Assembly: GCF_000971115.1 (NCBI RefSeq) | Contig: NZ_BBLV01000002.1 | Span: 124,001 to 188,000 of the forward strand | Origin: Demequina gelatinilytica | Lineage (GTDB): Bacteria; Actinomycetota; Actinomycetes; Actinomycetales; Demequinaceae | Reading direction: 5' to 3' | Length of the DNA stretch: 64,000 bases | In this document: piece after piece, positions 18,699-37,434 of the stretch | Layout: the number at the start of each line of letters is the position of its first letter | Position numbering within the stretch: position 1 is the stretch's first letter | Translations under genes and position numbers: made by a program | The notes under the pieces: generated by a model | Database searches by the model: none | The model's input: the letters and a program-made list of their open reading frames with translations, nothing else | Told to the model about the DNA's origin: nothing

Positions 18699-19205
18699 TC
18701 ACGGCGACGGCACGGTGACGGACGTGGGCCCGCCTGAGGCCGGGTTCGCCTGGTAGGTCACGCCGTCGCTGCCCACCACGGCGTCCGCGATGATCGAGTA
18801 GCTGACCTGGTACTCGCCCGGCGGGATGTCGTCGATGATGATCTGCACCGCCTGCCCCGAGCCGATGATGGTGATCGGCTGCGTGCTGGTGTAGGTCTCG
18901 TTCGGGTCGACGTCGGTGCGCACGGCGGTGATGGTCAGGGTCGCGGGGATCTCGGTGATCCCCGCCGCCGTCCAGTCCGCGTCGTACGCGAGGTAGTAGC
19001 TGATCTCCGCGCCCACGCTGTTGGGCGTGGCCCCCCACCCGACGCCGATGCTCACGCTCGAGATCACCGTGACGTCGCTGTTCACCACGTTCGACGTGGC
19101 CGCAGCCGGCGCGGAGGCTGCGATCACGATCGCGGGCGCGGCCCACGCGGCACCGATGATCACTCCCCGACGCGCCGGACCCGCGCCTCGACCCTGCTCG
19201 TGCAT
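18699..19205 (-). CDS. Exported beta-rich protein with RRG-GAAWAAPA signal (paralogue T1)
   Basis: The 168-residue protein starts with a twin-arginine-like signal: ARRGVIIGAAWAAPAIVIAA, then SAPAAATS as probable cleavage region. The mature part is rich in Thr/Val/Ser strands, has no Cys and has no C-terminal anchor, so it is predicted to be secreted and immunoglobulin- or fibronectin-like. It is the outlying member of six proteins in this window sharing the same signal. It is separated from the other five by metY-metX on the opposite strand. I do not recognise the mature domain and assign no function. Confidence 0.7.
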   Translation of the reverse strand: MHEQGRGAGPARRGVIIGAAWAAPAIVIAASAPAAATSNVVNSDVTVISSVSIGVGWGATPNSVGAEISYYLAYDADWTAAGITEIPATLTITAVRTDVDPNETYTSTQPITIIGSGQAVQIIIDDIPPGEYQVSYSIIADAVVGSDGVTYQANPASGGPTSVTVPSP

Positions 19206-19554
19206 GCCGCCCCCAGACGTCACCCTTCCCGCCAGCGTATGTCCGGCGATGCGCATCGGCATGTCGAGCGATCCTGGGTTGACCGCGGCCGGATCGCCCC
19301 CTACAGTCGCTCCCATGCTCCGTCGAATGTGCCGCTGACCAGCGCACGTTCGGCGTGCGCCCGTGAGGGCGCCGCTCGCGAGAAGGCCTGAGCCCCGCGA
19401 GCCGTAGCACCTCCGGGCCCACACGCCACGTGTCGCACCGCGCCCCCAGGGTCGCGGGCGGTCGGCGCGCTTGCACGCCCGATGGCCGGTGGCACCAGAC
19501 CTGGGGCCGCGGATCCGCCTCATCCCCGAGAACGATCCCGACACAGGAGCCACC
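19206..19554. other. 349-base gene-free region: metY leader and T1 promoter region
   Basis: No convincing gene is present. Two successive hairpins lie in the part that would lead into metY: GCGCACG-TTCGG-CGTGCGC (19342-19360), and GCTCGCG (19374-19380) pairing with CGCGAGC (19396-19402). I looked for SAM riboswitch cores and did not find one. The hairpins could be attenuator-like. A Shine-Dalgarno AGGAG sits directly before the metY ATG. Confidence 0.4.
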
Positions 19555-20910
19555 ATGACCACCACCCCCACCTGGGCCTTCGAGACGCTGCAGGTCCACG
19601 CCGGCCAGACCCCCGACGCCGAGACCGGCGCCCGCGCGCTGCCGATCTACCAGACCACGTCCTTCGTGTTCGAGGACACCACCCAGGCTGCCGCCCGCTT
19701 CGCGCTCGGCGAGCTGGGCCCCATCTACACGCGCCTGGGCAACCCCACCACCGAGGCCGTCGAGACCCGTATCGCGGCGCTCGAGGGCGGCGTAGGCGCG
19801 CTGCTGGTGAGCTCCGGCTCCGCGGCGAACACGCTCGCGATCCAGAACCTCGCGCACGCCGGCGACCACATCGTCGCCTCTCCGTCGCTCTACGGCGGCA
19901 CGTCGAACCTGTTCCGCCACACGCTTCCCCGCTTCGGCATCGAGGTCACCTTCGTGGAGGACCCGGACGACCCGGAGAGCTGGCGCGCGGCCGTCCGCCC
20001 CACCACCAAGGCGTTCTTCGGCGAGTCGATCTCCAACCCCAAGCAGGACCTCCTCGACATCGAGGCCGTGGCGGCCGTCGCGCATGAGGTGGGCGTACCG
20101 CTCATCGTGGACAACACTGTCGCGTCGCCCTACCTGGTCAACCCGCTCGCATGGGGCGCGGACATCGTCACCCACTCGGCCACCAAGTACCTGGGCGGCC
20201 ACGGCACCGCGATCGGCGGCGTCATCGTCGACGGCGGCGCGTTCGACTATGCGCTCCACCCCGACCGCTTCCCGGGCTTCAACTCCCCCGATCCCAGCTA
20301 CAACGGCCTGGTCTACGCGCGCGACCTGGGCGTGGGCTCGCCGCTCGGCGCGAACCTGGCCTTCATCCTCAAGGCCCGCGTCCAGCTCCTGCGGGACACC
20401 GGCGCCGCGATCAGCCCCTTCAACGCGTTCCTCATCGCCCAGGGCATCGAGACCCTGAGCCTGCGCGTCGAGCGCCACGTCGAGAACGCCGTGCGCGTCG
20501 CGGACTTCCTCGAGGGGCACCCGCAGGTGCTCGCGGTCGCCTACAGCGGCCTCGCGAGCAGCCCGTGGCACCACCTTCAGCGCAAGTACGCTCCGCGCGG
20601 CGGCGGCGCCGTCCTCGCGTTCGAGATCGCGGGCGGCAAGGACGCAGGTCAGGCGTTCGTCGACGCGCTCGAGCTCCACTCCCTGGTGGCGAACATCGGC
20701 GACGTGCGCTCGCTCGCGATCCACCCGGCGACCACCACGCACTCGCAGCTCACCCCCGAGGAGCAGGCCGAGGCGGGCGTCACCCCCGGGCTGGTCCGGC
20801 TCTCCGTGGGGATCGAGCACATCGACGACATCCTCACGGACCTGGGTCGCGGCTTCGAGGCCGCCGCCCGCGTCGCCACCACGGACGATGCGGAGGTCGC
20901 GCACGCATGA
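19555..20910 (+). CDS. metY: O-acetylhomoserine sulfhydrylase (Cys/Met PLP family)
   Basis: The 451-residue PLP enzyme makes homocysteine from O-acetylhomoserine and sulfide. The PLP lysine is K211 in HSATKYLGGHGT. The N-terminal FETLQVHAGQTPD, GPIYTRLGNPTTEAVE and SSGSAANTLAIQNL segments match the MetY group rather than cystathionine gamma-synthase, as does the length. It shares four bases with metX (ATGA), so enzyme and substrate supplier are co-translated. The start ATG has AGGAG upstream. Confidence 0.94.
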   Translation: MTTTPTWAFETLQVHAGQTPDAETGARALPIYQTTSFVFEDTTQAAARFALGELGPIYTRLGNPTTEAVETRIAALEGGVGALLVSSGSAANTLAIQNLAHAGDHIVASPSLYGGTSNLFRHTLPRFGIEVTFVEDPDDPESWRAAVRPTTKAFFGESISNPKQDLLDIEAVAAVAHEVGVPLIVDNTVASPYLVNPLAWGADIVTHSATKYLGGHGTAIGGVIVDGGAFDYALHPDRFPGFNSPDPSYNGLVYARDLGVGSPLGANLAFILKARVQLLRDTGAAISPFNAFLIAQGIETLSLRVERHVENAVRVADFLEGHPQVLAVAYSGLASSPWHHLQRKYAPRGGGAVLAFEIAGGKDAGQAFVDALELHSLVANIGDVRSLAIHPATTTHSQLTPEEQAEAGVTPGLVRLSVGIEHIDDILTDLGRGFEAAARVATTDDAEVAHA

Positions 20911-22133
20911 GCGGCGACCACGTCGAGACCGGCTGGGCGCCGGGCTCGACCCCGACACGCGCGGAGAGCCGCGCCGCGCTGGGCCCGATCCCCGCATCGG
21001 CCGCGTGGAGACCCGGCGACCACCCCGGCGAGCGGCGGTTCGTCGACATCGGCTGGCTGCCGCTCGAGGCCGACCCGCGAGGCGGGCTGGACGTCACGCT
21101 CGCGTACGAGACCTGGGGGACGCTCAACGCGGAACGGGACAACGCGGTGTACGTCGCGCACGCGTTCACGGGCGACAGCCACGTGCTCGGCGACGCAGGC
21201 GAGGGCCATCTCACCGGCGGCTGGTGGAACGGGCTCGTGGGCCCGGGCCACCCCATCGACACCGACCGCTGGTTCGTGGTGAGCGCGAACGTGGTGGGCG
21301 GGTGCCAGGGCAGCACCGGGCCGGCTCATCCGCATCCGTCCGACGGCCACCCGTGGGGGTCCGAGTTCCCGTACGTCACGCTGCACGACATGGTGATCGC
21401 GGAGTCCCGTCTCGCGGACCACCTGGGGATCGACGCGTGGGCGCTGGTGATCGGGCCGAGCATGGGCGGGATGCGTGCGGTCGAGTGGGCCGCGACGTTC
21501 CCCGAGCGGGTGCGTGCGATCGGCGCGATCGGGTCCACGGCGGCGACCACGGCGGACCAGATCGCGTGGCACGCGACCCAGGGGGCCGCCATCCGGCTCG
21601 ACCCGGCGTTCCGCGGCGGCGACTACTACGACGCGGCCGCCGGCGAGGGGCCGCACACGGGCCTAGGCATCGCGCGCGCGATCGCGCACACCACGTACCG
21701 CTCCGGACCGGAGCTCAACGGGCGCTTCGGGCGCGGCGCGCAGGAGGGCGACGTGCTGCGGCCGGGGGGCGTGTTCGCGGTGGAGTCCTACCTGGACCAC
21801 CACGCGGAGAAGCTCGCGCGGCGCTTCGACGCCAACACGTACCTGCGCATGCTCCATGCGATCAACACGCACGACGTGGGGCGCGGGCGAGGAGGCGTCG
21901 AGGCGGCTCTGGCCGAGTACCAGGGCGAGGCGCTGGTGGTCGCGATCGACTCCGACCGGCTCTACCCGCTCTCCGACTCCGAGCGGCTCGCCGCTGCCCT
22001 GCCGCGCTGCGAGGGCGTCACGCTGCTCCACTCGGAGGTGGGCCACGACGGCTTCCTGGTGGAGGGCTCTGGGCTGGACGATGCGGTGCGCGACATCCTC
22101 GCCCGGGTCGAGGCGCCCGCGCCTACCAGGTGA
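20907..22133 (+). CDS. metX: Homoserine O-acetyltransferase, second copy (operon with metY)
   Basis: The 408-residue MetX has its nucleophile S185 in GPSMGGMRAVEW and the same DSDRLYP and GHDGFL triad segments as the first copy. Co-translation with metY makes this the likely methionine-pathway enzyme. Differences from the first copy cluster in the N-terminal 25 residues and around the lid (GAQEGDVLRPGGVF against GYQGGSDPLGKGGLF). The stop overlaps the convergent gene T2 by 11 bases. Confidence 0.92.
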   Translation: MSGDHVETGWAPGSTPTRAESRAALGPIPASAAWRPGDHPGERRFVDIGWLPLEADPRGGLDVTLAYETWGTLNAERDNAVYVAHAFTGDSHVLGDAGEGHLTGGWWNGLVGPGHPIDTDRWFVVSANVVGGCQGSTGPAHPHPSDGHPWGSEFPYVTLHDMVIAESRLADHLGIDAWALVIGPSMGGMRAVEWAATFPERVRAIGAIGSTAATTADQIAWHATQGAAIRLDPAFRGGDYYDAAAGEGPHTGLGIARAIAHTTYRSGPELNGRFGRGAQEGDVLRPGGVFAVESYLDHHAEKLARRFDANTYLRMLHAINTHDVGRGRGGVEAALAEYQGEALVVAIDSDRLYPLSDSERLAAALPRCEGVTLLHSEVGHDGFLVEGSGLDDAVRDILARVEAPAPTR

Positions 22134-22629
22134 GGCGGTCCACCCTGATGGTGACCGGCTGCTCGCTCATGAGGTCGTCGGGCTTGTAGGTCACACCGTC
22201 GACCGTGGCCGAGCCGGAGGTGACCAGGTAGGTCGCGGAGTAGGTGCCGGTCGCCGTGACAGACAGCGTGGTGCGGACCTGGGCGGCGGCGGTCTGGCTC
22301 ACCGCGGCCGTGCCGGTCGCCGAGCCGACCACCGCACCGGCGGCGTTGCGCAGCGTGATGACCCACGTGGTCGGCACCACGAGCGTCGCCGGCCAGCCGG
22401 CCATGTACTTGAGCGCGTACTGGAGCTGGAAGGTGAGGGCCGACGGCTGCCCGTCCCAGCCCGACCCACCTCCGAAGTGGTGCTGCGTCAGGGCGGCGCC
22501 GGTCACCGGCGGCGTGGTGCTGCTCGCGCCGCCGGACGCCGCGGCGGGCGGCGAGCTGGTCGCGACAAGAATCGCCGGGGTGGCCCAGGCCGCCCCGGCG
22601 ATCACGCGCCTCCGTGAGATCTCCGTCAC
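22123..22629 (-). CDS. Exported protein with RRR-GAAWATPA signal (paralogue T2)
   Basis: The 168-residue protein begins VTEISRRRVIAGAAWATPAI, the same signal as T3, followed by VATSSPPAAASGG. The mature part has an aromatic stretch (HHFGGGSGWDGQPS) and then beta-strand-like Thr/Val repeats. It contains no Cys, membrane anchor or sorting signal. GTG at 22629 is chosen because the twin-arginine motif follows at residue 6. The 3' end overlaps metX tail-to-tail. Function is unknown; shared signals suggest a common export and maturation route. Confidence 0.7.
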   Translation of the reverse strand: MTEISRRRVIAGAAWATPAILVATSSPPAAASGGASSTTPPVTGAALTQHHFGGGSGWDGQPSALTFQLQYALKYMAGWPATLVVPTTWVITLRNAAGAVVGSATGTAAVSQTAAAQVRTTLSVTATGTYSATYLVTSGSATVDGVTYKPDDLMSEQPVTIRVDRLTW

Positions 22630-22720
22630 ACAGATCAGTATGCGGCACGTTCGGACCGTTCGAGAACCTTCTCCCACGTCCGTACGAAAGGTCCGATTCG
22701 CCCCCGGACCTGCGGCGACG

Positions 22721-23479
22721 TCAGGATGCGCAGGCGACCTGCGTGACCGTGGGCAGCGACACCCAGATGTCGTCGCTGACGGGGTTCGCCTCGCCGGTCG
22801 CGATCGGCTCGACGGTGAACGTGAAGGTGAGGACCGCCTGACCACCGTTGCCTGTCACCTGCACGGAGCGCGCCCTGCTGCTCTCATGCGCCTGGAGGTC
22901 GTACCCGGCCTCCGCCATCTGGGCATCAGAGGTGTTCCCGGGAGGCATGGCCCTCCAGCCGCCGTAAGCGCTGGTGTGGGGGATCGAGAGCTTGGTCAGC
23001 GTCGAGGATCCCGCCGCATCGTCCACGGTGAGCACCATGCTCTGGCGCGAGCTGGAGTTGCTGCCGCCGCCGTACTGCACCTTCGAGGTGAAGTCGACGG
23101 TGTACACCGCCCCACGAACAGCGGTGAAGGCGTAGCGAGCGACCAGCACGGCGGGCGTGGTGGTGGTCGCATTGTCGTCCATCGACTTGAAGCCCTCGGC
23201 GGTCCCGATGCCCATCCAGTCGTTGGTGATGGTCATGCTGTCCCCGGCGACGGCGGGCGTCCATCCGTTGGTGCCGTACTGCGCGTCGACGCTGCCGCTC
23301 TTGACCTCCCAGCCGAGCGCGGTCACCACTGCGGCGGTGCCGTTGTCCGCGTCCGAGCATGCGGAGGTCGCGGGCGCGCCGCCCGAGGCGGCCGCCGGAG
23401 GGGAGCTGGTCGCGACCAGGATCGCCGGCGTGGCCCACGCCGCACCGACCACCACACGTCGCCTCGAGATGTCCGTCAC
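22721..23479 (-). CDS. Exported protein with RRR-GAAWATPA signal (paralogue T3)
   Basis: The 252-residue protein has a signal nearly identical to T2 (VTDISRRRVVVGAAWATPAI). The mature part holds two Cys residues, one near the N-terminus (ATSACSD) and one at the very end (TQVACAS), which could form a disulfide closing the domain. The remainder looks like a carbohydrate-binding-module style beta sandwich (YTVDFTSKVQYGGGSNSSSR), but I cannot name a family. It is the only member with a perfect CRP-type operator directly upstream (23541-23556), 62 bases before the GTG start. Confidence 0.7.
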   Translation of the reverse strand: MTDISRRRVVVGAAWATPAILVATSSPPAAASGGAPATSACSDADNGTAAVVTALGWEVKSGSVDAQYGTNGWTPAVAGDSMTITNDWMGIGTAEGFKSMDDNATTTTPAVLVARYAFTAVRGAVYTVDFTSKVQYGGGSNSSSRQSMVLTVDDAAGSSTLTKLSIPHTSAYGGWRAMPPGNTSDAQMAEAGYDLQAHESSRARSVQVTGNGGQAVLTFTFTVEPIATGEANPVSDDIWVSLPTVTQVACAS

Positions 23480-23598: not shown

Positions 23599-24066
23599 CT
23601 ACGGGATGGTGACCGGGGTGGACGCGAGGTCGCTGCCGTCGACCGTCCCGTGGGCGGTGATGGTCACCGTGTCCCCCGCCGCGACACCGTTGAGGTAGAA
23701 GAGGCAGAACAGCGTCGCCCCGTTGTTCGACAGGTCGCCGTCGGAGAACACCCAGGCGGGGCTCGACCCGCTCACGGTCCACGGATCGCCCGGCTCCTCG
23801 AGCGTGGGGCTGCCGCTGCCGTTGTAGACCACCTCGACGTAGACGTTCTCGATCGGGGTGTCGGGCGTGCTGAAGTTCTGGACCAGGAACTGGATCTGCG
23901 CGCGGTCGCCACCCACGTCGTTGAGCTGGGCGTTGACGAACTCGAGCACCACCGAGCTCGCGGCGATCGCCGGGGAGGCGCTCGCGATCAGCACCGCCGG
24001 AGCGGTCCAGGCGGCGCCCTGCAGGACGCGTCGGCGGTTCATCCCATCGATGTTGGACTCGGCCAT
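23599..24066 (-). CDS. Exported protein with RRR-GAAWTAPA signal (paralogue T4)
   Basis: The 155-residue protein has the signal MNRRRVLQGAAWTAPAVLIA preceded by an eight-residue polar stretch. The mature part has a single Cys (ATLFCLFYLNG) and alternating hydrophobic strands reminiscent of DUF11-like or fibronectin-type domains. The ATG at 24066 is fixed by a near-perfect GAGGAGG ribosome site. Neighbours T3 and T5 are on the same strand with gaps of about 100 bases, so each gene may have its own promoter. Confidence 0.7.
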   Translation of the reverse strand: MAESNIDGMNRRRVLQGAAWTAPAVLIASASPAIAASSVVLEFVNAQLNDVGGDRAQIQFLVQNFSTPDTPIENVYVEVVYNGSGSPTLEEPGDPWTVSGSSPAWVFSDGDLSNNGATLFCLFYLNGVAAGDTVTITAHGTVDGSDLASTPVTIP

Positions 24067-24161
24067 GGCATCCTCCTCGGTCAGGAGCGGAGCGGTCACG
24101 TACGCCTCAGGCTAAGCGCAGATTGTCGCGATTGCACGGTTTCGCGCAACAACCGTGCGTC

Positions 24162-24635
24162 TCAGAGCTCGCCGACGAAGGTCACCGACGCATCGTCCTC
24201 GCCCACGGTCCCCGACAGCGTCGCCGTGAAGGTCGACCCGTTGACCCCCTTATTGAACGCGACCACGAACTGGTCGGAGTCGGAGATGGGACCGGGAGCG
24301 ACGAACACCACGTCCGCGTCACCCGTGGCGCCCGGGCTCCACGCGCTGCCGCCGGTGCTGACCTCGACCGAGGCGTCGGGCGCGTTCGTGGGCTCCCAAT
24401 GGATGGCGAGGGTGGCGTTCTCGAGCACCACGCCCTCGGGCAGGTGCACCGTGACGCGGTAGAGGTCGTCGTTGCCGGACTCGAGGTTCTCGATGAACGA
24501 GCCGTCGAGAGGGTTCTCCGGGGAGGTCGCCGCCGCGGGGGACGATGCCGCGATCACGATGGCGGGCGCCGTCCATGCGGCAGCGATCAGTGCGCCTCGA
24601 CGGGACGGCCCGTCGCGATCACGCTCTGCACCCAT
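24162..24635 (-). CDS. Exported protein with RRG-AAAWTAPA signal (paralogue T5)
   Basis: The 157-residue protein has a hydrophilic start (GAERDRDGPS), the signal SRRGALIAAAWTAPAIVIAA and SSPAAATS. Its mature part is acidic, Cys-free and predicted all-beta. In the signal it most resembles T1 (RRG instead of RRR). GAAGG lies upstream of the ATG at 24635. No anchor is visible and no function is assigned. Confidence 0.68.
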   Translation of the reverse strand: MGAERDRDGPSRRGALIAAAWTAPAIVIAASSPAAATSPENPLDGSFIENLESGNDDLYRVTVHLPEGVVLENATLAIHWEPTNAPDASVEVSTGGSAWSPGATGDADVVFVAPGPISDSDQFVVAFNKGVNGSTFTATLSGTVGEDDASVTFVGEL

Positions 24636-24751: not shown

Positions 24752-25633
24752 TCAGTGGAACTGGCCGCCCACGGTGCGCGTGAAGACCGTGGTGGAGGTG
24801 ACCTCGGTGCCGGTCGCGACGAGCGTGAAGGTGCTCCCGACCTTGGGCTTCTTGAACGACAGCACGATGGCGCCGGGGGCGAGCGTCCCCGTGTACGTGA
24901 AGGTGGTGGTGCGCATGCCGGTCGACGGCGAGTCGTTGACTGCGGAGGCCTTGGTCCACCCGGAGATGTCGACGGTCGAGCTCTGGCCCTGGAGCCCCTC
25001 GGGCGTCCACGTCACCACGATCTTGGCGTTGGTGACGGACGCGCTCGACGTGACCTGGTAGGAGTACGAGCTGCCGGTCCCGGCAACCGGGTCGGCGACG
25101 GTCGCGCTGAACGCGTTGACGCTGCCGGCACGGGTCACCGTGCGGCTCCCGGTCACGGTCGCACCGTTCGACGTGGCGGACGCCGCGAGCGCCGCGTTGA
25201 GCGGGTACGGGTCCTCGCCTGCCGGGGCGAGCGTGAGCGCGAACGCGGTCGACGAGGTCGACGTCGCGATCGAGGCCGCGTACGTGGCGGTGTAGATGAC
25301 CGACGTGCCGCTGGTGGTGGGGCCGGTGAGGACCCAGCCGGAACCCGAGGAGGACACGGGCGCCGCGGTCACCTGCGACGCGGGGACGGTGACCGTCACC
25401 TGCGTGCCCGTGAGCGGCTCGGAGCCGGCGACGCCGGAATTGGTCACCACAAGCGTGAGGACGCTGTTGACGCCGCTTGCGACGAAGGTCGAGGTCGCGA
25501 GCGAGACCGCACCGGGCGTCTGCGATGCCGCGGCCGGCGGCGAGGCCGTCGCGATCAGGACCGCGGGCGTGGCCCACGCCGCTCCCTGGACAATGCGGCG
25601 GCGCGATACACCGCTCTCAGCAACGCTCATCAT
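24752..25633 (-). CDS. Exported beta-rich protein with RRR-GAAWATPA signal (paralogue T6)
   Basis: At 293 residues this is the largest of the six. The signal is SRRRIVQGAAWATPAVLIAT followed by ASPPAAAS. The mature part appears to hold two beta-sandwich units: one near residues 45-135 with a DUF11-like pattern (LTLVVTNSGVAGSEPLTGTQ), and a second near 180-290. It contains no Cys and no sorting signal. Two adjacent in-frame ATGs (25633, 25630) follow a GAGGGG ribosome site. The HprK/PqqD operon begins beyond its 5' side. Confidence 0.7.
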   Translation of the reverse strand: MMSVAESGVSRRRIVQGAAWATPAVLIATASPPAAASQTPGAVSLATSTFVASGVNSVLTLVVTNSGVAGSEPLTGTQVTVTVPASQVTAAPVSSSGSGWVLTGPTTSGTSVIYTATYAASIATSTSSTAFALTLAPAGEDPYPLNAALAASATSNGATVTGSRTVTRAGSVNAFSATVADPVAGTGSSYSYQVTSSASVTNAKIVVTWTPEGLQGQSSTVDISGWTKASAVNDSPSTGMRTTTFTYTGTLAPGAIVLSFKKPKVGSTFTLVATGTEVTSTTVFTRTVGGQFH

Positions 25634-25764: not shown

Positions 25765-26064
25765 TCAGTCGACCTCGATGACGCCTCTCTGCAGCAGGGC
25801 CGCGAGGAACTCTCGGACGGCCGCCGCGGGGTCCTGTCCCGGCGGCGCACCGAAGACCTCGGCCAGGTGCTCGCCCAGCTCCGCGACCGTGATGTCCTCG
25901 CGGGCCGCGCGTACCAGCTCGGTGGCGACCGGGGACAGCAGCGACACCTCGTTGCCCGCGAGCACCAGCATCTGGCCGTCGCGCTCGATCGCGTCGTCCC
26001 ACACGGACCTCACGCGCGCATCGTCCATGAGGGCCGGCACCGGGGGGACCTCGGCCGGGCTCAC
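25765..26064 (-). CDS. PqqD-like small protein (first)
   Basis: The 99-residue protein matches the PqqD fold (PF05402): a short beta region (DGQMLVLAGNEVSLLSPVATELVRA) followed by two helices with TVAELGEHLAEVFG and VREFLAALLQRGVIEVD. PqqD relatives bind peptide substrates for modifying enzymes. In HprK-related gene sets a PqqD-type protein is a standard companion. The GTG at 26064 overlaps the stop of the HprK-like gene as GTGA, so the two are made together. No precursor peptide gene is recognisable next to it. Confidence 0.75.
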   Translation of the reverse strand: MSPAEVPPVPALMDDARVRSVWDDAIERDGQMLVLAGNEVSLLSPVATELVRAAREDITVAELGEHLAEVFGAPPGQDPAAAVREFLAALLQRGVIEVD

Positions 26065-27455
26065 GCGGTCGCCCCGAGCAGGCGAGGCATGAGCGGGATC
26101 ACGTCCCGCGCCTCCCGGTACCGCAGGCGTGAGACGCCGCCCACGGACTCGACCAGGTCCGCGAGCGTGTGGAGCTTGCGGGGCAGGCGCGCGAGGAAGG
26201 AGATCTGCTCGGCCAGGTGCGCGAGGCCCTCGAGGAGCGGCAGCTCCTCGATCACGGGCCTGTCGGCGTAGATGTCGCGCTCGATCAGCATCAGGCGGAC
26301 GAGCCTCAGCGGCGCGCCCGGCACCGGCACCAGGTCGAGCGACTCGGGCCCCCACTCCTCCTTGAGGCCACCCGCCTTGCGCTCGAGGATCGACAGCGGC
26401 TTCGGGTACGGGAGGACGCGGCGGTCGGCGTCGACCGCCAGCGTCTCGTCGGTGACGTAGCCGTAGTGCGCGCCGAGCGTGCGTGCGAGCGTGGTCTTCC
26501 CCGTACCGGAGGGCGCGATGAAGCCGACCACCTCCCCGGTGGGTGCCGCGATCCCGGCGGCGTGCAGCATCACCATCCCGCCCACGCGCTGCTCGATGGC
26601 CCGCACGGTGATGGCGCTCGTGAGGAAGTGGATCGCGTGGGACGGGTCGCCGTACGCGAGGCCGCCCGCCACGCGCGCGGCCGCGATCACGGCAGGGTCG
26701 GGATCCACCGTGACCTCGATCGCGGACTCGACCGGCGCATCGTCCGCCCCCGGCACCAGGCAGCGGCTCCACATGCGCCGCGCCGCGGCGGCGACAGGTG
26801 CCACCCCGGCGCCCGCGAAGTCCACCGCGAGGCGCACGCCGAAGGCGTCGAGCCGCATCGCGTCCTCGCTCGGCTCCGGGTGGGAGGATGCCGGCAGCAG
26901 CGCCGCCCACACCGCCGCCATCCACGCGCACGCGGCGTCGATGCGGTCGCCCAGCTGGTGGACATGCTCCTCGATGGCCTCGAGGGGCGGGAGCTCGAAG
27001 TCGAGCGGGATCCGGGTGGCGGCATCGCGGCGGCGGCCGAGCAGCGCCGGATGCTCCGCGAGCGGCGCCGCGCGCACGGCGCCGTCGTACAGGAAGGCGA
27101 GCTCCGAGAGGGTGAAGGCCCGGCGCGCGACGTGGGGATGGCGCTGCACCAGCGTCTCCCACTCGGCCTTGGTGCCCGTCACGATGAGGTCCGCGGCGTC
27201 GACGATCGCCGCGCTGAGCGACCGCGTGCGGAAGCCCGCCGGGTTCGCCCCCTTGCGCTCGATCTCGGCGCGCGCCAGATCGAGCATCGGCTCGCCGTCC
27301 GCGGCGTCGAGACCCGCGCTGGTGACGCGGATCGCCTCCGCGCTCACGCCATGGCTCGCGAGATGGCGCCGGAGCATGCGCTCCCCCGCCGCGGAGCGGC
27401 CCGCGTTGTCGGAGTCGACGATGAGCACGCGCAGGCGTGCCGGGACCTCCCGCAT
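26061..27455 (-). CDS. HPr-kinase-like protein fused to a catalytically altered low-molecular-weight phosphatase domain
   Basis: The 464-residue protein has two parts. Residues 8 to about 185 follow the low-molecular-weight tyrosine phosphatase pattern (VLIVDSDNAGRSAAGE, then TRSLSAAIVDAADLIVTGTKAEW). The catalytic C-x5-R loop reads D14-SDNAG-R20, so the nucleophilic Cys is gone and the domain should lack ordinary phosphatase activity. Residues about 200-464 match HPr-kinase-related proteins: P-loop IAPSGTGKTTLARTLG (313-328) and the acidic motif YVTDETLAVD (333-342). The neighbours are a tyrosine autokinase gene four bases upstream and a PqqD-like gene overlapping downstream. The N-terminal domain could be a phosphotyrosine-binding adaptor for the kinase's Tyr-rich tail; that is inference. 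Whether the C-terminal part phosphorylates a protein, peptide or sugar is unknown. Confidence 0.82.
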   Translation of the reverse strand: MREVPARLRVLIVDSDNAGRSAAGERMLRRHLASHGVSAEAIRVTSAGLDAADGEPMLDLARAEIERKGANPAGFRTRSLSAAIVDAADLIVTGTKAEWETLVQRHPHVARRAFTLSELAFLYDGAVRAAPLAEHPALLGRRRDAATRIPLDFELPPLEAIEEHVHQLGDRIDAACAWMAAVWAALLPASSHPEPSEDAMRLDAFGVRLAVDFAGAGVAPVAAAARRMWSRCLVPGADDAPVESAIEVTVDPDPAVIAAARVAGGLAYGDPSHAIHFLTSAITVRAIEQRVGGMVMLHAAGIAAPTGEVVGFIAPSGTGKTTLARTLGAHYGYVTDETLAVDADRRVLPYPKPLSILERKAGGLKEEWGPESLDLVPVPGAPLRLVRLMLIERDIYADRPVIEELPLLEGLAHLAEQISFLARLPRKLHTLADLVESVGGVSRLRYREARDVIPLMPRLLGATA

Positions 27456-27459: not shown

Positions 27460-29016
27460 TCAGGCCTCGCCGGGCGTGCGCGCCCCCGACTCCCCGCTGA
27501 CCACGTGGTCCCAGTCGAGGATGCCCTCGGGGCGGCCCTCGCGCCGCTGGTCGGACGGCCGGCCTGCCGCGGCATGCTTGGGTCCGCCCGTGCCGGCCGC
27601 GCGCGGTGCCGCGACGGATTCCGCCGGGGCAGCCTTCGCCTCGCCCCGGCCCTGCTTGTGCTGGTACTCGTACGCGTAGGCGTAGCGGTCCTTGTGCGCC
27701 CCGCGGCGCGGGACCGAGTTGAGGATCACGCCGAGCGCGCGTCCCTTGACCTTGTCGAGGTTCTGGAAGGCGCGGTCGAGCACGTCGATGGTGGTCTTGC
27801 CGGACCGGGCGACCACGAGCGCGCCGTCGGTGCGCGCCGTCAGCACCGCGGCGTCCGTCACCGGGATCAGCGGCGGGGTGTCGATGATCACCATCGCGTG
27901 CTCGGGGAACCCGTAGAGCAGGGTCTTCATCGCGTCGGAGGCGAGCAGCTCGGACGGGTTGGGCGGGATGACGCCCGAGGCGAGCACGAACAGGTGGCCC
28001 GTCTCGCCGTAGGCCTGCAGCACGTCGCGCGTCGAGGCGCGGCCCACGAGCACGTCGGTGAGGCCCGCGCCCTCGACCAGGCCCAGCTTCTTGGCGATCA
28101 CCGGCCGGCGCAGGTCGGCGTCGACGAGCACCACGTCGTGGCCGGAGTCCGCGATCGCCTCTGCGAGCGTGATCGCCGCGGTGGACTTGCCGTCGCCGGG
28201 CAGCGCGGAGGTCACCACGATGACGCGCGGCGGGTTGTCGACGTCCATGAACTGGAGGTTGGTGCGCAGCTGGCGGACCGCCTCCTTCATGGCGAAGTCG
28301 CTCGTGTCCACCTTCATCGCCGAGCGCGCGAAGGACGGGTCGAAGGGCAGCGCGCCCACGACCGGCGCGTCGAACTCCCGCTCCACGTCCTCGGTCTTGC
28401 GCAGCCGGCGGTCGAGCGCGGCCTTGACCAGCGCGTAGCCGATGCCGAGCGCGAGGCCCACGAGCACGCCCAGCACCACCGCGAGCTTGACGTTCGGGGA
28501 GGTGGGAGCGGACGGCAGCACCGCGCTGTCGAGGGTCTGGAGGCTCACCACCGAGGTGGTCTCACCGTCCGCGGAGCCCTCGTTCTCGAGGTCCGAGACC
28601 ACCGCGGTCATGCCCGCGATCCAGGCCTCGGCAAGGTCGCGCGCGGCCTCGGGCGTGGGCCCGTTCGCGGCGACGCGCAGCACGGCCGTGTCGAGCGGAT
28701 TCGTGACGGACACGCGGGCGACCAGCGCATCCGCGCTCGAGGACAGGCCCAGCTCCTCCGCGGCATGCTCCGCGACCTTGCGGGACTTCGCGATGTCCAG
28801 GTAGCTCTTCACGCGGGACTTCGCGTAGTTGTCGCCCACCAGCGCGCTGCCCAGGTCCTGGCTCGCGCCCGTGGTGATGATCGCGGAGCCGGTGGCCGTG
28901 TAGACCTTCGGCTGCGTGAGGGTCCACCCGAATGCGAGCAGGCCGCCCAGCACGGTGACCATGACGATCACGATCCAGTGTGCGCGGAACACCCGCAGGT
29001 AGTCCTGGAGCTCCAT
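27460..29016 (-). CDS. Wzz/BY-kinase-type polysaccharide co-polymerase and tyrosine autokinase (first)
   Basis: The 518-residue membrane protein controls polysaccharide chain length. Two membrane helices (about 15-33 and 178-198) flank an external Wzz domain, and the cytosolic C-terminus is a BY-kinase. Walker A is LPGDGKST (272-279), Walker A' is VVLVDADLRRP (295-305) with both Asp residues present, and Walker B is MVIIDTPPL. Two Tyr-rich sites are visible: RYAYAYEYQHKQ, and then a long basic, Ala/Gly-rich tail of about 60 residues not seen in the other two copies. It is the most divergent of the three kinases here and the only one with a complete Walker A'. It is co-transcribed with the HprK-like, PqqD and nucleotidyltransferase genes. 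Confidence 0.9.
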   Translation of the reverse strand: MELQDYLRVFRAHWIVIVMVTVLGGLLAFGWTLTQPKVYTATGSAIITTGASQDLGSALVGDNYAKSRVKSYLDIAKSRKVAEHAAEELGLSSSADALVARVSVTNPLDTAVLRVAANGPTPEAARDLAEAWIAGMTAVVSDLENEGSADGETTSVVSLQTLDSAVLPSAPTSPNVKLAVVLGVLVGLALGIGYALVKAALDRRLRKTEDVEREFDAPVVGALPFDPSFARSAMKVDTSDFAMKEAVRQLRTNLQFMDVDNPPRVIVVTSALPGDGKSTAAITLAEAIADSGHDVVLVDADLRRPVIAKKLGLVEGAGLTDVLVGRASTRDVLQAYGETGHLFVLASGVIPPNPSELLASDAMKTLLYGFPEHAMVIIDTPPLIPVTDAAVLTARTDGALVVARSGKTTIDVLDRAFQNLDKVKGRALGVILNSVPRRGAHKDRYAYAYEYQHKQGRGEAKAAPAESVAAPRAAGTGGPKHAAAGRPSDQRREGRPEGILDWDHVVSGESGARTPGEA

Positions 29017-29044: not shown

Positions 29045-29341
29045 TCAGTTTAGGGGCGCGACCCTCTCCACCAGTCCCAGCGCGGTCAACTCGGCCACGA
29101 ACGCGGCGACCGCCTCAGTGATCTCCTCGGCACCGCCACCGTGCGCCGCGGCGAGCTCCCCGGCCACGTCGTCGATGGTCCGCGCGCCGTCGATGCGGGT
29201 CCAGATCTCGAAGGCCACGCCCTCGAACAGGTACGGCGACTGCTGCTGCTCGACCCGCGGCAGGTTGAGCACCACGGCGTGGTCGGCGTGCCTGACCTCT
29301 GCGAGCCCTGGCGCCTGACGCAGGGACGATGCGCGGGTCAC
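29045..29341 (-). CDS. PqqD-like small protein (second)
   Basis: The 98-residue protein has the PqqD pattern: VVLNLPRVEQQQSPYLFEGVAFEIWTRI, then ARTIDDVAGELAAAHG and AVAAFVAELTALGLVERV. It differs clearly from the first PqqD protein, so the operon encodes two non-identical members. The GTG at 29341 overlaps the nucleotidyltransferase stop as GTGA. Its position before the tyrosine kinase suggests a partner role in the same pathway. Confidence 0.72.
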   Translation of the reverse strand: MTRASSLRQAPGLAEVRHADHAVVLNLPRVEQQQSPYLFEGVAFEIWTRIDGARTIDDVAGELAAAHGGGAEEITEAVAAFVAELTALGLVERVAPLN

Positions 29342-30309
29342 GGCGCGCCGTCCTTGTCGGGGCGGGTGAGGGTGCGGTCCGTCTCGCCGCGGCGCGCGCG
29401 GGCCAACGAGGACACCACCCCGGGCGCGGCTCGAAGCCCGCGGCCCCAGCGCTCGAAGCGTGCCCGCACCAGCGCGGCTCGACCGGGACGGATCTCCGGA
29501 TGGTCGCGCCGCAGGTCCTGCTCGGAGCGCCAGAACGCGTTCCAGATCAGTCGCGGACGGCGCCGCAGCGGCGAGCCCGCGATGATCTGCCAGTGCTGGA
29601 CCGTCGACGAGCCCTGCGCGCCCGTGCGCACCCGCCACGCGTCGAGGTCAGGGTCCACGCGCGCGGGCGTCGGGGGCGGGAGCGCGACGAAGCGCTCGAG
29701 CACCGGTCGCGCGGTGTCCTGGCACCCGGTGAGGGAGGCGAGGCTCGCGAGGTCCGCGCGCTCCGTCTCCGAGAGCGACGGCAGGACGGTGTCGAGCAGC
29801 ATCCGGACCTCGATGGCGTGACGCGTGGTCTGCGCGGGCGTGCGCAGGCTGTGCAGCGCGGCGATGAGGATGGCGCCGATGCGGTCGGGGATGCACACCT
29901 CGACGCCGGCCAGGGTGAGCGGGACGCGGCGCTCCCACAGCGCCTCGAACACGTCCGCGGGCTCCCGGAGGAATCCCGGGAAGCGCACGTGCACGTCGAT
30001 GTCGCACGGCCAGGAGTCGTGGATGAGCGTCACGGAGTGCGTCGCGAACAGATGGGCGAGGTCGGAGTGCTCGCGCTCGTGCCAGCCGGCCGCGGCGAGG
30101 CCGTCGAGCATCGCGGCGAGGTCCTGGGGCGCCACCATCGCATCGGCATCGGCGCTGACCCGCGCGGGTCGCAGGCCGTGGTGGGCGGAGCCAGGTCCCT
30201 TGAGGAACAGCACGCGGATGCCGCGCGCACGCCCCACGCTGTCCACGAGGGCGTGGGCGAGCTCCACCGCATCCGCCGCGGCCAGCGCGCTGGGCTCCAC
30301 GCGCGCCAC
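29338..30309 (-). CDS. Nucleotidyltransferase-family protein (PF14907-like)
   Basis: The protein is about 323 residues and matches the uncharacterised nucleotidyltransferase family often found with HprK- and PqqD-like proteins. The polymerase-beta-like core is visible as FLKGPGSAHHGLRPARVSADADAMV, with the metal-binding D-x-D in SADADAMV, and WPCDIDVHVRFPGF supplying a third Asp. The C-terminal 100 residues are Arg-rich. The start is uncertain between GTG at 30309 and 30300; neither has a good ribosome site. As the first gene of the minus-strand operon (nucleotidyltransferase, PqqD, tyrosine kinase, HprK fusion, PqqD) it diverges from the flippase gene. Substrate is unknown. Confidence 0.75.
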   Translation of the reverse strand: MARVEPSALAAADAVELAHALVDSVGRARGIRVLFLKGPGSAHHGLRPARVSADADAMVAPQDLAAMLDGLAAAGWHEREHSDLAHLFATHSVTLIHDSWPCDIDVHVRFPGFLREPADVFEALWERRVPLTLAGVEVCIPDRIGAILIAALHSLRTPAQTTRHAIEVRMLLDTVLPSLSETERADLASLASLTGCQDTARPVLERFVALPPPTPARVDPDLDAWRVRTGAQGSSTVQHWQIIAGSPLRRRPRLIWNAFWRSEQDLRRDHPEIRPGRAALVRARFERWGRGLRAAPGVVSSLARARRGETDRTLTRPDKDGAP

Positions 30310-33085: not shown

Positions 33086-33802
33086 CTAGAACCCGGCGCG
33101 CTCCAGGATCCGCGCGTGGAGCTCCTCGCAACCGCTGCCCGCGAGCGCCGCGACCGCCTGGTCCTCGAGCTCGCGGCGGCGCGCCTTCTTCTCCTCCGTG
33201 GGCACCGGCACCAGCCCGGCCATGCCCTTGCGCTGGTAGCCCGGGGTCTCGAGCAGGCGGGCGCGGATGCGCTCCTGCAGCTCCTCGTCGTACGGCTCCG
33301 CGTGGAGGTCGAGCCCGTAGCGCTGCTCGATCGCGTGGGCGGCGCCCTCGGGGTCCGCCGTGAATCGCTCGAACGGCAGCACCATCACCTGGTCCAGGTA
33401 CGGGAGCATCCGCTGGTGGTAGAAGCGCCACCACTCGACCGCCAGCGCCGCATCCATGCGCGGGTCCGCGACCAGGAGCGACAGCACCGCGTCCAGCGGT
33501 CGGCGCACCACCAGCACGGCGGGCACGTCCCACCGGGCGGCGCGCGCGTACTGGCCCACCACGTGGAGGTGGTGGCCCAGCCGGAGCTCCGGATCGCAGG
33601 TCCGCAGGTACCGCACCAGGAAGGAGTTGCCCGAGCGCGGGAAGCCCTCGACCACCAGCGCCGTGTCGCGCATCGTCAGCCCCCGCGTGTGGCGGCGCAG
33701 GCGCGCGATCGCGCCGGTCCCCCACGCGGTGGCGCCGATGCGCCACTTGAGACGGCGCGCGGGAGGCAGCACCCGCGCGGTCACCGAGGTCTCCACAGCC
33801 AC
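33086..33802 (-). CDS. Sulfotransferase-like P-loop protein (cluster member 1)
   Basis: The protein has 238 residues. The 5'-phosphosulfate loop is VEGFPRSGNSFLVRYL and the 3'-phosphate motif is VLVVRRPLDAVLSLLV, with the usual spacing of about 45 residues. The basic C-terminal helix (EEKKARRRELEDQAVAAL) resembles others of this group. The GTG at 33802 begins one base after the stop of the upstream sulfotransferase gene and has GGGGAG at good spacing. It is the last of five tandem sulfotransferase genes that appear to share one transcript. Confidence 0.78.
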   Translation of the reverse strand: MAVETSVTARVLPPARRLKWRIGATAWGTGAIARLRRHTRGLTMRDTALVVEGFPRSGNSFLVRYLRTCDPELRLGHHLHVVGQYARAARWDVPAVLVVRRPLDAVLSLLVADPRMDAALAVEWWRFYHQRMLPYLDQVMVLPFERFTADPEGAAHAIEQRYGLDLHAEPYDEELQERIRARLLETPGYQRKGMAGLVPVPTEEKKARRRELEDQAVAALAGSGCEELHARILERAGF

Positions 33803-33803
33803 G

Positions 33804-34712
33804 TCAGCTCCCCACGAACTCGCGGACGTCGTCGAGGTCATGCATCGAGTAGCCGAGCGCGCGCGCCCGGTCCTCGTAGCGCTCGGCGATGCGCGTGTAC
33901 CGCCCGGTGAGGGAGTCGACGCGGCTCACCACGGCCCAGCTCGAGCCGTACATCGACCACTTGAGGCCGGAACGCTGGCGCGTGGGCGACATCACGGGCG
34001 GGTGCGGACCCCAGCGGCGTGTGCGCTGGCTCTCCACGAACCCCCGGTAGGCGTCGGAGCGTGCCGCGTCGATCATCGAGGCGTCCAGCGGCTCGGAGAG
34101 CCCCAGGAACTCGGAGACCTTGCCCAGCTCCCGTGCGGGATCGCGCATGAGGTGCTCGTAGCGCAGGACCAGGAGGTTGCGGATCCCCGGGGCGTCGGCC
34201 GCGAGCCCCTCGTGGATGGCGAACCAGTTGTCGAGCGTGCCCTCGAACCGCAGCCCGAGCGTGGGAAGCAGCATCGGCAGCGACCGGTCCCACTTGTGCA
34301 CCGCGAGCGCCTGGATGAGCGGATGGCGCGTGATGACGATGAACCGCGCATCCGGCCACACCGACTGGAGGAACGGCAGCCTCGCGACGTTGGGCGGCGA
34401 CTTCTCCACCCTGAGCGAGGCATCGGAGGACCAGTACGGCTCCCACGCCTCCTCGATGGTCCGGCGCATGTCCTCGCGCATCGGCTCGGGCGCCGCGTCC
34501 TCGTGGGCCTCGGGATGGAGCGCCCAGCGCGTGGGGCCTCCCAGCTCCATCGCGATCGGCAGGACGGTCTGGAGGTGCTGGCCCTCGTCCTCCGGGACCC
34601 CGGTGCCCACCAGGCCCGCGATCTCGGACGATGCCGCCATCACCTTGGCGAGCACCGTGGTGCCCGAGCGGTGCGCGCCGCCCACGAACACCATCCGGTG
34701 CGGATCGCTCAC
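33804..34712 (-). CDS. Sulfotransferase (cluster member 2)
   Basis: The 302-residue protein has a PAPS-binding loop FVGGAHRSGTTVLAKVM at the N-terminus and a 3'-phosphate motif FIVITRHPLIQALAVHKW. The conserved LVLRYEHLMRDP segment near the middle is typical of sulfotransferase family PF13469. GTG at 34712 overlaps the upstream stop as GTGA. The acceptor is presumably a sugar of the exopolysaccharide made by neighbouring genes; this is inferred from location. Confidence 0.85.
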   Translation of the reverse strand: MSDPHRMVFVGGAHRSGTTVLAKVMAASSEIAGLVGTGVPEDEGQHLQTVLPIAMELGGPTRWALHPEAHEDAAPEPMREDMRRTIEEAWEPYWSSDASLRVEKSPPNVARLPFLQSVWPDARFIVITRHPLIQALAVHKWDRSLPMLLPTLGLRFEGTLDNWFAIHEGLAADAPGIRNLLVLRYEHLMRDPARELGKVSEFLGLSEPLDASMIDAARSDAYRGFVESQRTRRWGPHPPVMSPTRQRSGLKWSMYGSSWAVVSRVDSLTGRYTRIAERYEDRARALGYSMHDLDDVREFVGS

Positions 34713-35527
34713 GCCCACGGGATCTCCCTGCCGAGCAGCTGCGCGAGCTCGGCTGCATCCTGCTCGAACATCGGTCGCACGTACGCGACGTCCTCCTCGG
34801 GGATCCCCTTGTACTGGCGTGCGTTGCGCGGTGCGAGGTCGAGGCCCGCGAGGCTCGCCCCGCCCAGGCCCAGGAAGCCGGTCACCTCGGTGAGGAAGCC
34901 GGCGGGGTCCGCGAACATGTCGCTCGAGAGCCCCACGAACACCTGCTCGCGCGGGTAGCTCGCGAGCCAGCGGCGCAGCTGCGGGGCGTAGAGGCCGCGG
35001 CGCACGTAGCTGCATCGCTCGGCGACCACGCGGCGCTGAGCGCCGGCCGCGAGCGCCTCCCACGCGGCGGCGGTGCGCTCCTCCTCGCGGTCGACCGCCT
35101 CGCGGAAGGTCTCGACGTCCTCATGCCCGAGCGCACGCTCGTGATGGAAGTGCGAGAACGCGCGCTCGACGGGGTCTCGCAGCAGCGCGACGATGCGCGC
35201 GTCCGGCAGGAGCGCCGCGGCGCGCTCGGGCGCCTTCGGATGCGCGAGGTAGAACGGCGAGGCGTCTCCGGCGAGCCAGTCGCGGGACTCCCCCGCGCGT
35301 GGGAAGTGCGCGCGGTACCAGGCCTCGCCGCGCGTGTGGTGGTGGTCGAAGTAGTGGACCTCCTTGCGGAAGGCCGGGCGCACCGCGTCGAGCTGCTCGA
35401 GGTACTCGCTCAGGGACGTGGTGCCGGCCTTCTGCGCGCCGATGATGAGGAAGTCCGGCAGGACGCGCGCGCCGGAGGTCGCGCTGCGCGCCATGAACTC
35501 CGTGGTACTCCTCAGCCCGTCGAGCAT
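34709..35527 (-). CDS. Sulfotransferase, NST-like (cluster member 3)
   Basis: The 272-residue protein has FLIIGAQKAGTTSLSEYL as 5'-phosphosulfate loop, VHYFDHHH (as in heparan-sulfate N-/O-sulfotransferases), and IVALLRDPVERAFSHFHHE as 3'-phosphate motif. A conserved YVRRGLYAPQLRRWLASYP segment follows. This is the most canonical sugar sulfotransferase of the set (PF00685). It has overlapping translation with the next gene downstream. Confidence 0.88.
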   Translation of the reverse strand: MLDGLRSTTEFMARSATSGARVLPDFLIIGAQKAGTTSLSEYLEQLDAVRPAFRKEVHYFDHHHTRGEAWYRAHFPRAGESRDWLAGDASPFYLAHPKAPERAAALLPDARIVALLRDPVERAFSHFHHERALGHEDVETFREAVDREEERTAAAWEALAAGAQRRVVAERCSYVRRGLYAPQLRRWLASYPREQVFVGLSSDMFADPAGFLTEVTGFLGLGGASLAGLDLAPRNARQYKGIPEEDVAYVRPMFEQDAAELAQLLGREIPWA

Positions 35528-35570
35528 GGCGCCACCATATAACAGTGCAATCCCGGCATACCGGACGCGC

Positions 35571-36494
35571 TCACGGGAGCCCCGAACGCGAGGCGGGCAC
35601 CCCCACGCGCACGTCCGCGGTGAGCGCGTCGACGGCGGCGTTCTCCTCCTCCGTGAGGCTTCCGTGCCAGTAGGTGGCGACGGCGCCCACGTCACGATGC
35701 CGGTCGTGGGTGCGCGTGGGCGTCTCGCGCCCGCCGGCGCGGTACTTGTCCTCGAGCGCGCGCACGGCGTCCTCGGAGAGCTCGAGCCCGCAGAACTCGT
35801 AGAGCCGCTCGTAGACCGCGCGCGGCTGCTCGAGCACGTCCTCGACGGACACCCATGCGATGTTGGCCAGCCCCGCGGTGGTCGCGCTCGCGTGGCCGTA
35901 GCCGAGCCTCCACAGCGCGGCGCCCGTGGCCGCGGAGCCCGACTCGGCGAGCGTGAGCGCGTCCTCGGACAGCGCCCAGGGGGCGTCGCCCCCGGGGTCC
36001 AGGCGTCGCTGGATCCCACGGATGTCGAAGCTCCACCCGAGCCGCTTGAAGCTGGCCGCTACGGCGTGCGGGTCGCGCATCGTGATGACGGTGGGCACCG
36101 CGAAGCGCGTCGCGATGCGCGCGACCAGGAAGATCGCGAACGGGTCCTTCCAGATCACATGATCGGGCGTGGGCCCCCAGCGCAGCGCGCGTGCCGAGAC
36201 ACGGCTCTGCCCCCCGACCACGTACTTGCCCAGACGCCGCAGCCCGCGGTCCTCCGGGAACACCCCGCTGCGCAGGCGCAGCCGGAGGTCGAGGATCGCC
36301 TGGATGTCCTCGTCGTGGTCGCGGGTGTCGCCCACCGTGGGGAAGTAAGCCTCGATGGAGCGCAGCCCCGACTCGTAGTTGAGCGGCTCGTAGAGGAACC
36401 GCGTGCTGGGCGCGAAGCCGAGCACCTCGCCGATGGGCGTGGTGCCCGAGCGCGGCACCCCGGTCACCAGGATGGTCCGATGCGCACGCGCCAT
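35571..36494 (-). CDS. Sulfotransferase-like protein (cluster member 4)
   Basis: The 307-residue protein has the loop ILVTGVPRSGTTPIGEVL at the N-terminus and TVITMRDPHAVAASFKRLGW as 3'-phosphate motif. ATG at 36494 lies directly after the upstream stop. The C-terminal RAGGRETPTRTHDRHRDVG stretch is basic. It is clearly a paralogue of the neighbouring genes in layout but not close in sequence, which suggests different acceptors. Confidence 0.82.
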   Translation of the reverse strand: MARAHRTILVTGVPRSGTTPIGEVLGFAPSTRFLYEPLNYESGLRSIEAYFPTVGDTRDHDEDIQAILDLRLRLRSGVFPEDRGLRRLGKYVVGGQSRVSARALRWGPTPDHVIWKDPFAIFLVARIATRFAVPTVITMRDPHAVAASFKRLGWSFDIRGIQRRLDPGGDAPWALSEDALTLAESGSAATGAALWRLGYGHASATTAGLANIAWVSVEDVLEQPRAVYERLYEFCGLELSEDAVRALEDKYRAGGRETPTRTHDRHRDVGAVATYWHGSLTEEENAAVDALTADVRVGVPASRSGLP

Positions 36495-36495
36495 C

Positions 36496-37434
36496 TCAGT
36501 ACCCGTAGCGCTTCCGCAGGGGCGCGGTGACCAGGCCGACGCGGCGCCGCGTCCCCGCCGGCAGCGCGGTGCGCCACTCCGAGTCGAGCCGCAGCCGCGT
36601 CGCGCCCACCCGCATGCGGGAGGGGTTGCCGGCCACCGTGTGGCAGGCCGCGAGGTCGATCTCCCCGGCGGGGCCGATGCCCGGCACGCCGTCGCTCGGC
36701 AGCCCGAGCCGCTCGAGCGCGCCCCCGAGCACCCCGGCGGGATCCGCCACGGCATCCTCGTAGCGGACGCGGACGTAGCCCGAGGCCTTGCGGGCGAGCG
36801 ACCCCGCGACGGCGTTCATGCGCAGCCAGATCCACCCGCTGCGCTCGGGCACCAGGCGCGTGATCTCCTCATGCGAGCCGGCACCCGCATCGGTCCGCGT
36901 CACGGCCTTGGTCCACGAGTACGCGACGCCCCGCGGATCGCGGACCACGTGCAGCACGCGCACGTCGAGCCGCTCGGAGCGCGCGAGCACGCTCGCGACG
37001 GTGGGGTGCTTGCTCGAGTCGATAGGGATGCGCCCGCTCTCCTGATGCGCCGCGACCAGCACCGCGGTGTAGAAGTCGAGGTACTCGCGCACCCGCTCCA
37101 GGTAGTCGCCGCGCTCGACCAGGAATCGTGGCAGCAGGTCGTGGCGCACGCGGCCCAGGTCGTGGAACAGCACCTTCATCCGGGGCGCGTCGACCTGGTC
37201 CCAGCCGCCGAAGGCGCGCTCCCCGACCGCGGTCCAGAATGGGCAGCCCTGGAACGCGAGCCCGCATCCGCAGAGCTCGCCGCCCATGATCCCGCGCTCG
37301 GGCAGCAGCCCCACCTCGCCCAGCGACATGAGATCGGGCGACTGGCCCAGGATGCGGTCGATGAGCGTGGTCCCGCTGCGGCCCCACCCGGCGACGTACA
37401 CGACCGGCACCTTGTCCACCACGCGCGGATCCAC
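36496..37434 (-). CDS. Sulfotransferase (cluster member 5)
   Basis: The 312-residue protein is the first gene of the five-gene run. The 5'-phosphosulfate loop is YVAGWGRSGTTLIDRIL and the 3'-phosphate motif is LHVVRDPRGVAYSWTKAV. A Cys-rich stretch (GGELCGCGLAFQGCPFW) is unusual. Start choice is uncertain: GTG at 37434 sits inside its own GGAGG, and GTG at 37422 would have that GGAGG at useful spacing. The gene diverges from a glycosyltransferase across 119 bases. Confidence 0.83.
   Translation of the reverse strand: MDPRVVDKVPVVYVAGWGRSGTTLIDRILGQSPDLMSLGEVGLLPERGIMGGELCGCGLAFQGCPFWTAVGERAFGGWDQVDAPRMKVLFHDLGRVRHDLLPRFLVERGDYLERVREYLDFYTAVLVAAHQESGRIPIDSSKHPTVASVLARSERLDVRVLHVVRDPRGVAYSWTKAVTRTDAGAGSHEEITRLVPERSGWIWLRMNAVAGSLARKASGYVRVRYEDAVADPAGVLGGALERLGLPSDGVPGIGPAGEIDLAACHTVAGNPSRMRVGATRLRLDSEWRTALPAGTRRRVGLVTAPLRKRYGY

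Follow-up and report, generated by a model that had tools for sequence, protein, structure and literature searches.

In the window that we analysed, a 64,000-nucleotide stretch of the Demequina gelatinilytica genome, one gene joins an HprK-like kinase to the fold of a low-molecular-weight phosphatase (LMWP) that lacks its catalytic Cys. Two questions follow from such an arrangement: what is a phosphatase domain of this kind retained for, and on what does the attached kinase act? A sequence-only reading of the stretch had answered the first by proposing a phosphotyrosine reader.

The fusion gene and its phosphatase domain

The fusion is real: Pfam, AlphaFold2, Foldseek and the Walker A motif all bear out an HprK-like kinase joined to a phosphatase fold without catalytic Cys. 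Its strand, however, had to be corrected to minus; the same frame on the plus strand contains a stop. Residues 10–108 match the Pfam LMWPc model (PF01451; E 3.6e-7, 30.9 bits against a curated cut-off of 23.2). AlphaFold2 modelled the full-length fusion, from 52 sequences, with pLDDT 91.7 and pTM 0.85, and the first 191 residues alone with pLDDT 91.3 and pTM 0.88. Structural comparison of the N-terminal domain with Wzb, a check that the sequence-only reading had suggested, recovered a phosphatase fold: the best Foldseek matches were YwlE, LMWP tyrosine phosphatases and Wzb, with TM-scores normalised by target of 0.80–0.85 (∼0.84–0.85 for YwlE and LMWPTP and 0.82–0.84 for Wzb; structures 4etn, 4egs and 2wmy at 0.82–0.85). 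With a profile match above the cut-off and an LMWP fold, the N-terminal domain is an LMWP by descent.

The replacement of C-x5-R by D14-x5-R20 had been read correctly. Residues 14–21 are D-S-D-N-A-G-R-S, and the phosphate loop V-D14-S-D-N-A-G-R20-S stands against V-C-x-G-N-x-C-R-S in LMWPs. The general-acid Asp (DP[FYWM]) is missing as well, an ELPP-type sequence aligning with the DVPDPM/DPY of intact LMWPs in a loop where the alignment contains gaps. Judged by these residues, the domain is no longer equipped for phosphoester hydrolysis.

Table 1. Features of the fusion locus and its surroundings; positions are those of the window unless a contig is named.
Feature	Position	Strand	Remark
Sixth, separate Tat-like-signal protein	18699..19571	minus	start codon uncertain
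Tat-like-signal secreted protein	22123..22845	minus	true start probably closer to RRR motif
Tat-like-signal secreted protein	22721..23479	minus	
Tat-like-signal secreted protein	23599..24099	minus	
Tat-like-signal secreted protein	24162..24635	minus	
Tat-like-signal secreted protein (RRRIVQGAAWATPAVLIATASPPAAAS), probable substrate	24752..25633	minus	
PqqD-like protein 2 (PqqD2)	25765..26064	minus	overlaps kinase stop codon
Fusion gene, 464 aa + stop	26061..27455	minus	reads 27455 to 26061; pseudophosphatase, linker and kinase
HprK-like P-loop kinase region	26064..26858	minus	residues 200–464
Short variable linker of fusion protein		minus	residues 187–199
LMWP (Wzb/YwlE-fold) pseudophosphatase domain	26898..27434	minus	residues ∼8–186; Pfam, model, Foldseek, alignment
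BY-kinase (Wzc-like), first tyrosine autokinase	27460..29016	minus	Tyr-rich tail DRYAYAYEYQH; ends 4 bases before fusion start codon
PqqD-like protein 1 (PqqD1)	29045..29341	minus	module member
NTP_transf_5 nucleotidyltransferase	29338..30300	minus	4-base overlap with PqqD1
Three neighbouring sulfotransferase-family genes	33086..36755	minus	beside polysaccharide genes
Second tyrosine autokinase	43815..45425	plus	
Third tyrosine autokinase	61762..63201	plus	
Cys-intact Wzb-like LMWPs beyond window	C31:189913 and 200971		same contig

Conservation and selection across Demequina

A search for homologous fusions, which had also been suggested, covered 44 Demequina genomes and yielded 21 full-length fusions, none of them with an intact Cys. 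Position 14 is occupied by D in 18, G in two, S in one and C in none of these orthologs. Asp is thus not fixed there, and we reject Asp14 as a fixed functional residue on the evidence of the three orthologs with G or S. At position 20, exactly the 18 orthologs that have D14 carry R; the remaining three have M, T or C. When the tree is rooted with Nocardioides, the S ortholog branches at the base and both G orthologs fall inside the D group.

Old structural positions that are invariant in the fusion comprise E25, S46-A47-G48, P107, F114 and E118, and to these are added the new invariant residues P131, H135, L139 and W183. For ortholog pairs of more than 72% identity, dN/dS was 0.12–0.44 in the pseudophosphatase domain, compared with 0.09–0.43 in the N-terminal part of the kinase and 0.04–0.31 in the kinase core; the pseudophosphatase domain is under purifying selection. 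One changed Cys codon in a single genome could give the appearance of a dead domain through pseudogene formation, sequencing error or local mutation, but we give this explanation practically no weight, because 21 of 21 orthologs, each from a different species, lack the Cys while keeping intact frames and a dN/dS well below 1, which already refutes it.

Compared with Wzb-type LMWPs (PF01451, YwlE being the closest fold), the domain shares the fold, the SAG motif, the loop Arg in most orthologs and a BY-kinase neighbour, but it has neither the catalytic Cys nor the general-acid Asp, is joined to a kinase, and carries a new invariant motif of the PxxEH type.

The kinase half

H298, the Walker A motif APSGTGKTT (residues 314–322) and the pair D336-E337, which we take to be equivalent to the corresponding HprK positions, show little or no variation within Demequina and among 34 relatives; R393 of the kinase region is also invariant. 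With a Walker A motif, a preceding His and a following acidic pair all present, the kinase region can be assigned by its motifs to the HprK-like P-loop kinase superfamily.

The HprK-related kinase A model (TIGR04352, HprK_rel_A) matches the kinase region in 33 of 34 family members (best E 7.6e-9). On the kinase itself, however, it scores 20.5–21.6 bits against a curated cut-off of 200, and at a score so far under the cut-off we class the kinase as a distant relative of TIGR04352 and not as a member. The likeness to TIGR04352 and the PqqD protein of its system (TIGR04353) extends to the pairing with a PqqD-like protein; the further differences are the fusions with LMWP or PqqD found here and an actinobacterial neighbourhood containing a BY-kinase and Tat-like-signal proteins.

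We also reject the kinase as a true HPr kinase/phosphorylase. The two have in common a P-loop kinase and structural matches to PEPCK, which Foldseek returned for the full-length model, but PF07475 does not match the fusion gene in its own genome even at E ≤ 10. The PEPCK-type fold is common to HprK/P as well. When the kinase profile was searched against PDB sequences, only generic Walker A matches came up.

The module around the fusion gene

The order of transcription on the minus strand is NTP_transf_5, PqqD1, BY-kinase, fusion and PqqD2, and then the secreted proteins (25633–22123). Gaps or overlaps of 4 to 28 bases as far as PqqD2 suggest a single operon. The sequence-only reading was right to place the fusion gene four bases after a tyrosine autokinase and to count three such autokinases in the window (Table 1). 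Its description of the fusion as the only phosphatase-fold gene holds inside the window but not beyond: past its right edge, at distances of ∼1.9 kb and 13 kb, come two Wzb-like LMWPs with an intact Cys, and the apparent uniqueness is due to where the window ends.

In HMM scans of loci L033–L085, every locus of the actinobacterial type had a PqqD2-type gene immediately following the kinase, with NTP_transf_5, PqqD1, BY-kinase and LMWP less constant than PqqD2. The nucleotidyltransferase family (PF14907, NTP_transf_5) is present in 68 of 86 kinase-bearing genomes. Many kinase loci of other genera have neither a BY-kinase nor an LMWP within ∼10 kb, and we therefore regard the link to the BY-kinase as accessory. 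There is, then, a conserved actinobacterial module of an HprK-like kinase, a PqqD-like protein, NTP_transf_5, a second PqqD and a BY-kinase, with an LMWP in some members.

Several features of these loci deserve separate mention. In other genera, and in one Demequina genome (G040), the C-terminus of the kinase is joined to a PqqD-like protein in one open frame (L143, L144, L145, L122, L123). Two module genes of Demequina sediminis (L043), those for the BY-kinase and NTP_transf_5, appear broken up into overlapping frames, possibly through frameshifts, sequencing errors or decay. The sulfotransferase trio of the window suggests a sulfated exopolysaccharide or a sulfated surface protein.

Origin of the phosphatase domain

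Kinases outside Demequina have no phosphatase domain, and their matches begin near residue 173–190 or later. A module LMWP in other genera is a separate gene with a Cys-intact C-x-G-N-x-C-R-S loop and a DP motif (L051–L056, L059, L060 and L082); in three Nocardioides it sits between the BY-kinase and kinase genes. Because the module of other genera may carry such a separate, Cys-intact LMWP, fusion and inactivation probably took place in Demequina. The AU test did not reject the dead domain in one clade with the Nocardioides module LMWPs (p 0.455), and it mildly rejected derivation from Demequina's own Wzb-like LMWPs (p 0.037). All Demequina with the fusion encode additional LMWP-family genes elsewhere. 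The likely history, as these sequences portray it, is one of a separate active LMWP gene, followed by fusion and loss of catalysis in either order.

The module LMWPs of a Sporosarcina beigongshangi contig (L054, labelled as Firmicute) and of Arthrobacter silviterrae (L056) group very closely (100/100), which reflects either recent transfer or assembly contamination.

Eukaryotic dead phosphatases have received much study; for a dead LMWP in bacteria, our literature search found no example. The eukaryotic STYX pseudophosphatases are likewise phosphatase folds without the catalytic Cys that evolution has retained, but they belong to another phosphatase class, whereas the Demequina domain is fused to a kinase and its loop Arg is not universal.

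An export signal inherited with the kinase

The secreted proteins adjacent to the module begin alike, with a Tat-like N-terminus of the consensus GxSRRRxxxGAAWATPAILxATAxPAAAAS, and their mature parts are unrelated; those in the window have no meaningful match in Pfam or NCBIfam. The signal motif is RRRxxxGAAWxxPAxxxAxxxPAxAxS. From Demequina copies only we built a signal profile of 30 columns, and signal copies are recorded in loci L033–L050 and L128–L147.

The signal is present in 23 of the 44 Demequina genomes, namely in 22 of 22 with the kinase as against 1 of 22 without it (Fisher p 2e-11), and among 396 genomes of the order (Actinomycetales) the kinase occurs in 86 and the signal in 86, with both in 79 and neither in 303 (Fisher p ∼6e-66), although these p-values overstate the evidence because the sampled genomes are related. 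The discordant genomes of the order sample are seven with the kinase only and seven with the signal only. Outside Demequina, 59 genomes have both, seven only one of the two, six only the other and approximately 289 neither; counted by genus, kinase and signal are shared in 24 and stand alone in two and one. The scattered distribution, within Demequina as well as across genera, speaks against pure common descent.

Of the 84 signal copies in Demequina, 76 are no more than 20 kb away from the kinase. In other genera many copies sit at a great distance from the kinase, and the proteins that bear them vary in make-up. The signal-bearing proteins, secreted and roughly 140–600 aa in length, are probably substrates or clients of the kinase; co-occurrence alone is no proof of this.

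We considered whether the signal tracks the nucleotidyltransferase and not the kinase, and reject this, as the signal is found in 1 of 33 genomes that have PF14907 without the kinase; it is found in 14 of 18 that have the kinase without a PF14907 match. Separately, one kinase-less Demequina encodes a single signal-bearing protein (G017:C8:68134, L146), possibly a remnant. Literature searches on an HprK-related kinase, on PqqD with HPr kinase and exopolysaccharide, and on PqqD with twin-arginine found nothing.

Possible roles of the dead domain and the kinase

Our preferred reading, to which we assign a probability of about 0.45, is that the LMWP of the module was fused and inactivated to become a docking or regulatory domain near the BY-kinase, and that the kinase phosphorylates the Tat-like-signal proteins. 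In a Demequina ancestor, the module's own once-active LMWP gene would have joined the kinase gene, with loss of both catalytic residues. The dead domain would have been kept as a non-catalytic docking or regulatory part, most likely holding the kinase near the BY-kinase encoded in this operon, for which a domain of Wzb-like descent could have preserved an affinity and thereby serve as a tether. Docking would involve surfaces other than the phosphate loop, a step that we infer, adjacency not being equal to contact. The kinase, guided by the PqqD proteins, would most likely phosphorylate secreted proteins marked by the Tat-like RRRxxxGAAWxxPA signal, and the nucleotidyltransferase may decorate that phosphate, much as happens in the lasso peptide pseudomycoidin.

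Lasso-peptide clusters furnish a precedent: their RRE protein brings the peptide forward, their HPr-kinase homolog places a phosphate on a Ser, and their nucleotidyltransferase extends this phosphate with hexoses (PMC8498205). As in the tailoring sets of paeninodin and pseudomycoidin, genes for an HPr-kinase homolog, a nucleotidyltransferase and RRE/PqqD-like proteins occur together in the module (PMC8498205). Unlike those sets, the genes identified here include no lasso-peptide synthetase, and the candidate substrates are secreted proteins, often encoded far off in other genera.

The alternative that survives best, though we think it unlikely, is that the dead domain serves the kinase alone, as a structural element contributing stability, oligomerisation or intramolecular autoregulation without a partner in the polysaccharide machinery. 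Consistent with this, the invariant W183 ends the long last helix leading into the linker, and the purifying selection on the domain resembles that on the N-terminal subdomain of the kinase. However, the linker is variable, homologous kinases of other genera do without such a domain, and since an LMWP is what a BY-kinase ordinarily works with, the fusion suggests that the partnership was retained.

The proposal of the sequence-only reading, that the domain is a phosphotyrosine reader taking the HprK-like kinase to the phosphorylated BY-kinase tail, would have to work through what is left of the phosphate loop; it emerges weakened, and we now consider it improbable. It draws on the retention of Arg20 in 18 of 21 orthologs, on the adjoining BY-kinase with its conserved Tyr tail in Demequina loci, and on STYX-type dead phosphatases, which are known from eukaryotes. 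It also draws on E. coli, where Wzb acts on the tyrosine-rich tail of Wzc and, in Wzc systems, Wzc/Wzb cycling of tail phosphorylation controls polymerisation (PMC8285477). Yet the three orthologs in which M, T or C replaces the loop Arg have BY-kinases that keep tyrosine-rich tails (YYGYSYEY, for example), making us sceptical of a reader as a family-wide function. The loop residues Asn17 and Ser21 are not conserved among the orthologs, and an acidic Asp at the Cys position, where phosphate would bind, should repel it. Furthermore, no ortholog has only one of D14 and R20, a pattern that suggests an internal salt bridge and fits it better than a phosphotyrosine pocket. A non-catalytic docking or regulatory domain is more likely than a phosphotyrosine reader, and recruitment to the autokinase through another surface is possible.

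A domain with a new activity, such as phosphoryl transfer via Asp14 or His135, seems to us very improbable: in its favour, the fusion always has His135, which the aligned intact LMWPs lack, but Asp14 is not conserved, and no LMWP-fold enzyme working through Asp is known to us, nor is any partner residue.

A parallel to the preferred docking domain comes from Myxococcus, where EcpK is reported to be a tyrosine pseudokinase in exopolysaccharide synthesis (PMC12004946). A dead member of a phospho-regulation pair is kept in polysaccharide synthesis in both cases, but the dead partner is the kinase in Myxococcus and the phosphatase in Demequina (PMC12004946).

Implications

Demequina offers a bacterial dead LMWP with a readable history, from an active separate gene in related taxa to a fusion in which both catalytic residues are lost and which selection has kept. 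The link between kinase and signal is the weightier result than the phosphatase domain. Near-perfect co-inheritance with one export signal now makes it directly testable what HprK-like/PqqD pairs do outside lasso peptides. In a wider and more tentative proposal, the kinase and PqqD, often with NTP_transf_5, would form an undescribed actinobacterial protein-marking system, encoded in Demequina next to sugar genes of the capsule type, that modifies dispersed, signal-bearing secreted proteins, with the Demequina kinase tethered to the exopolysaccharide autokinase by a phosphatase-derived docking domain. If this is true, the export or decoration of surface proteins would be coupled to polysaccharide assembly in Demequina.
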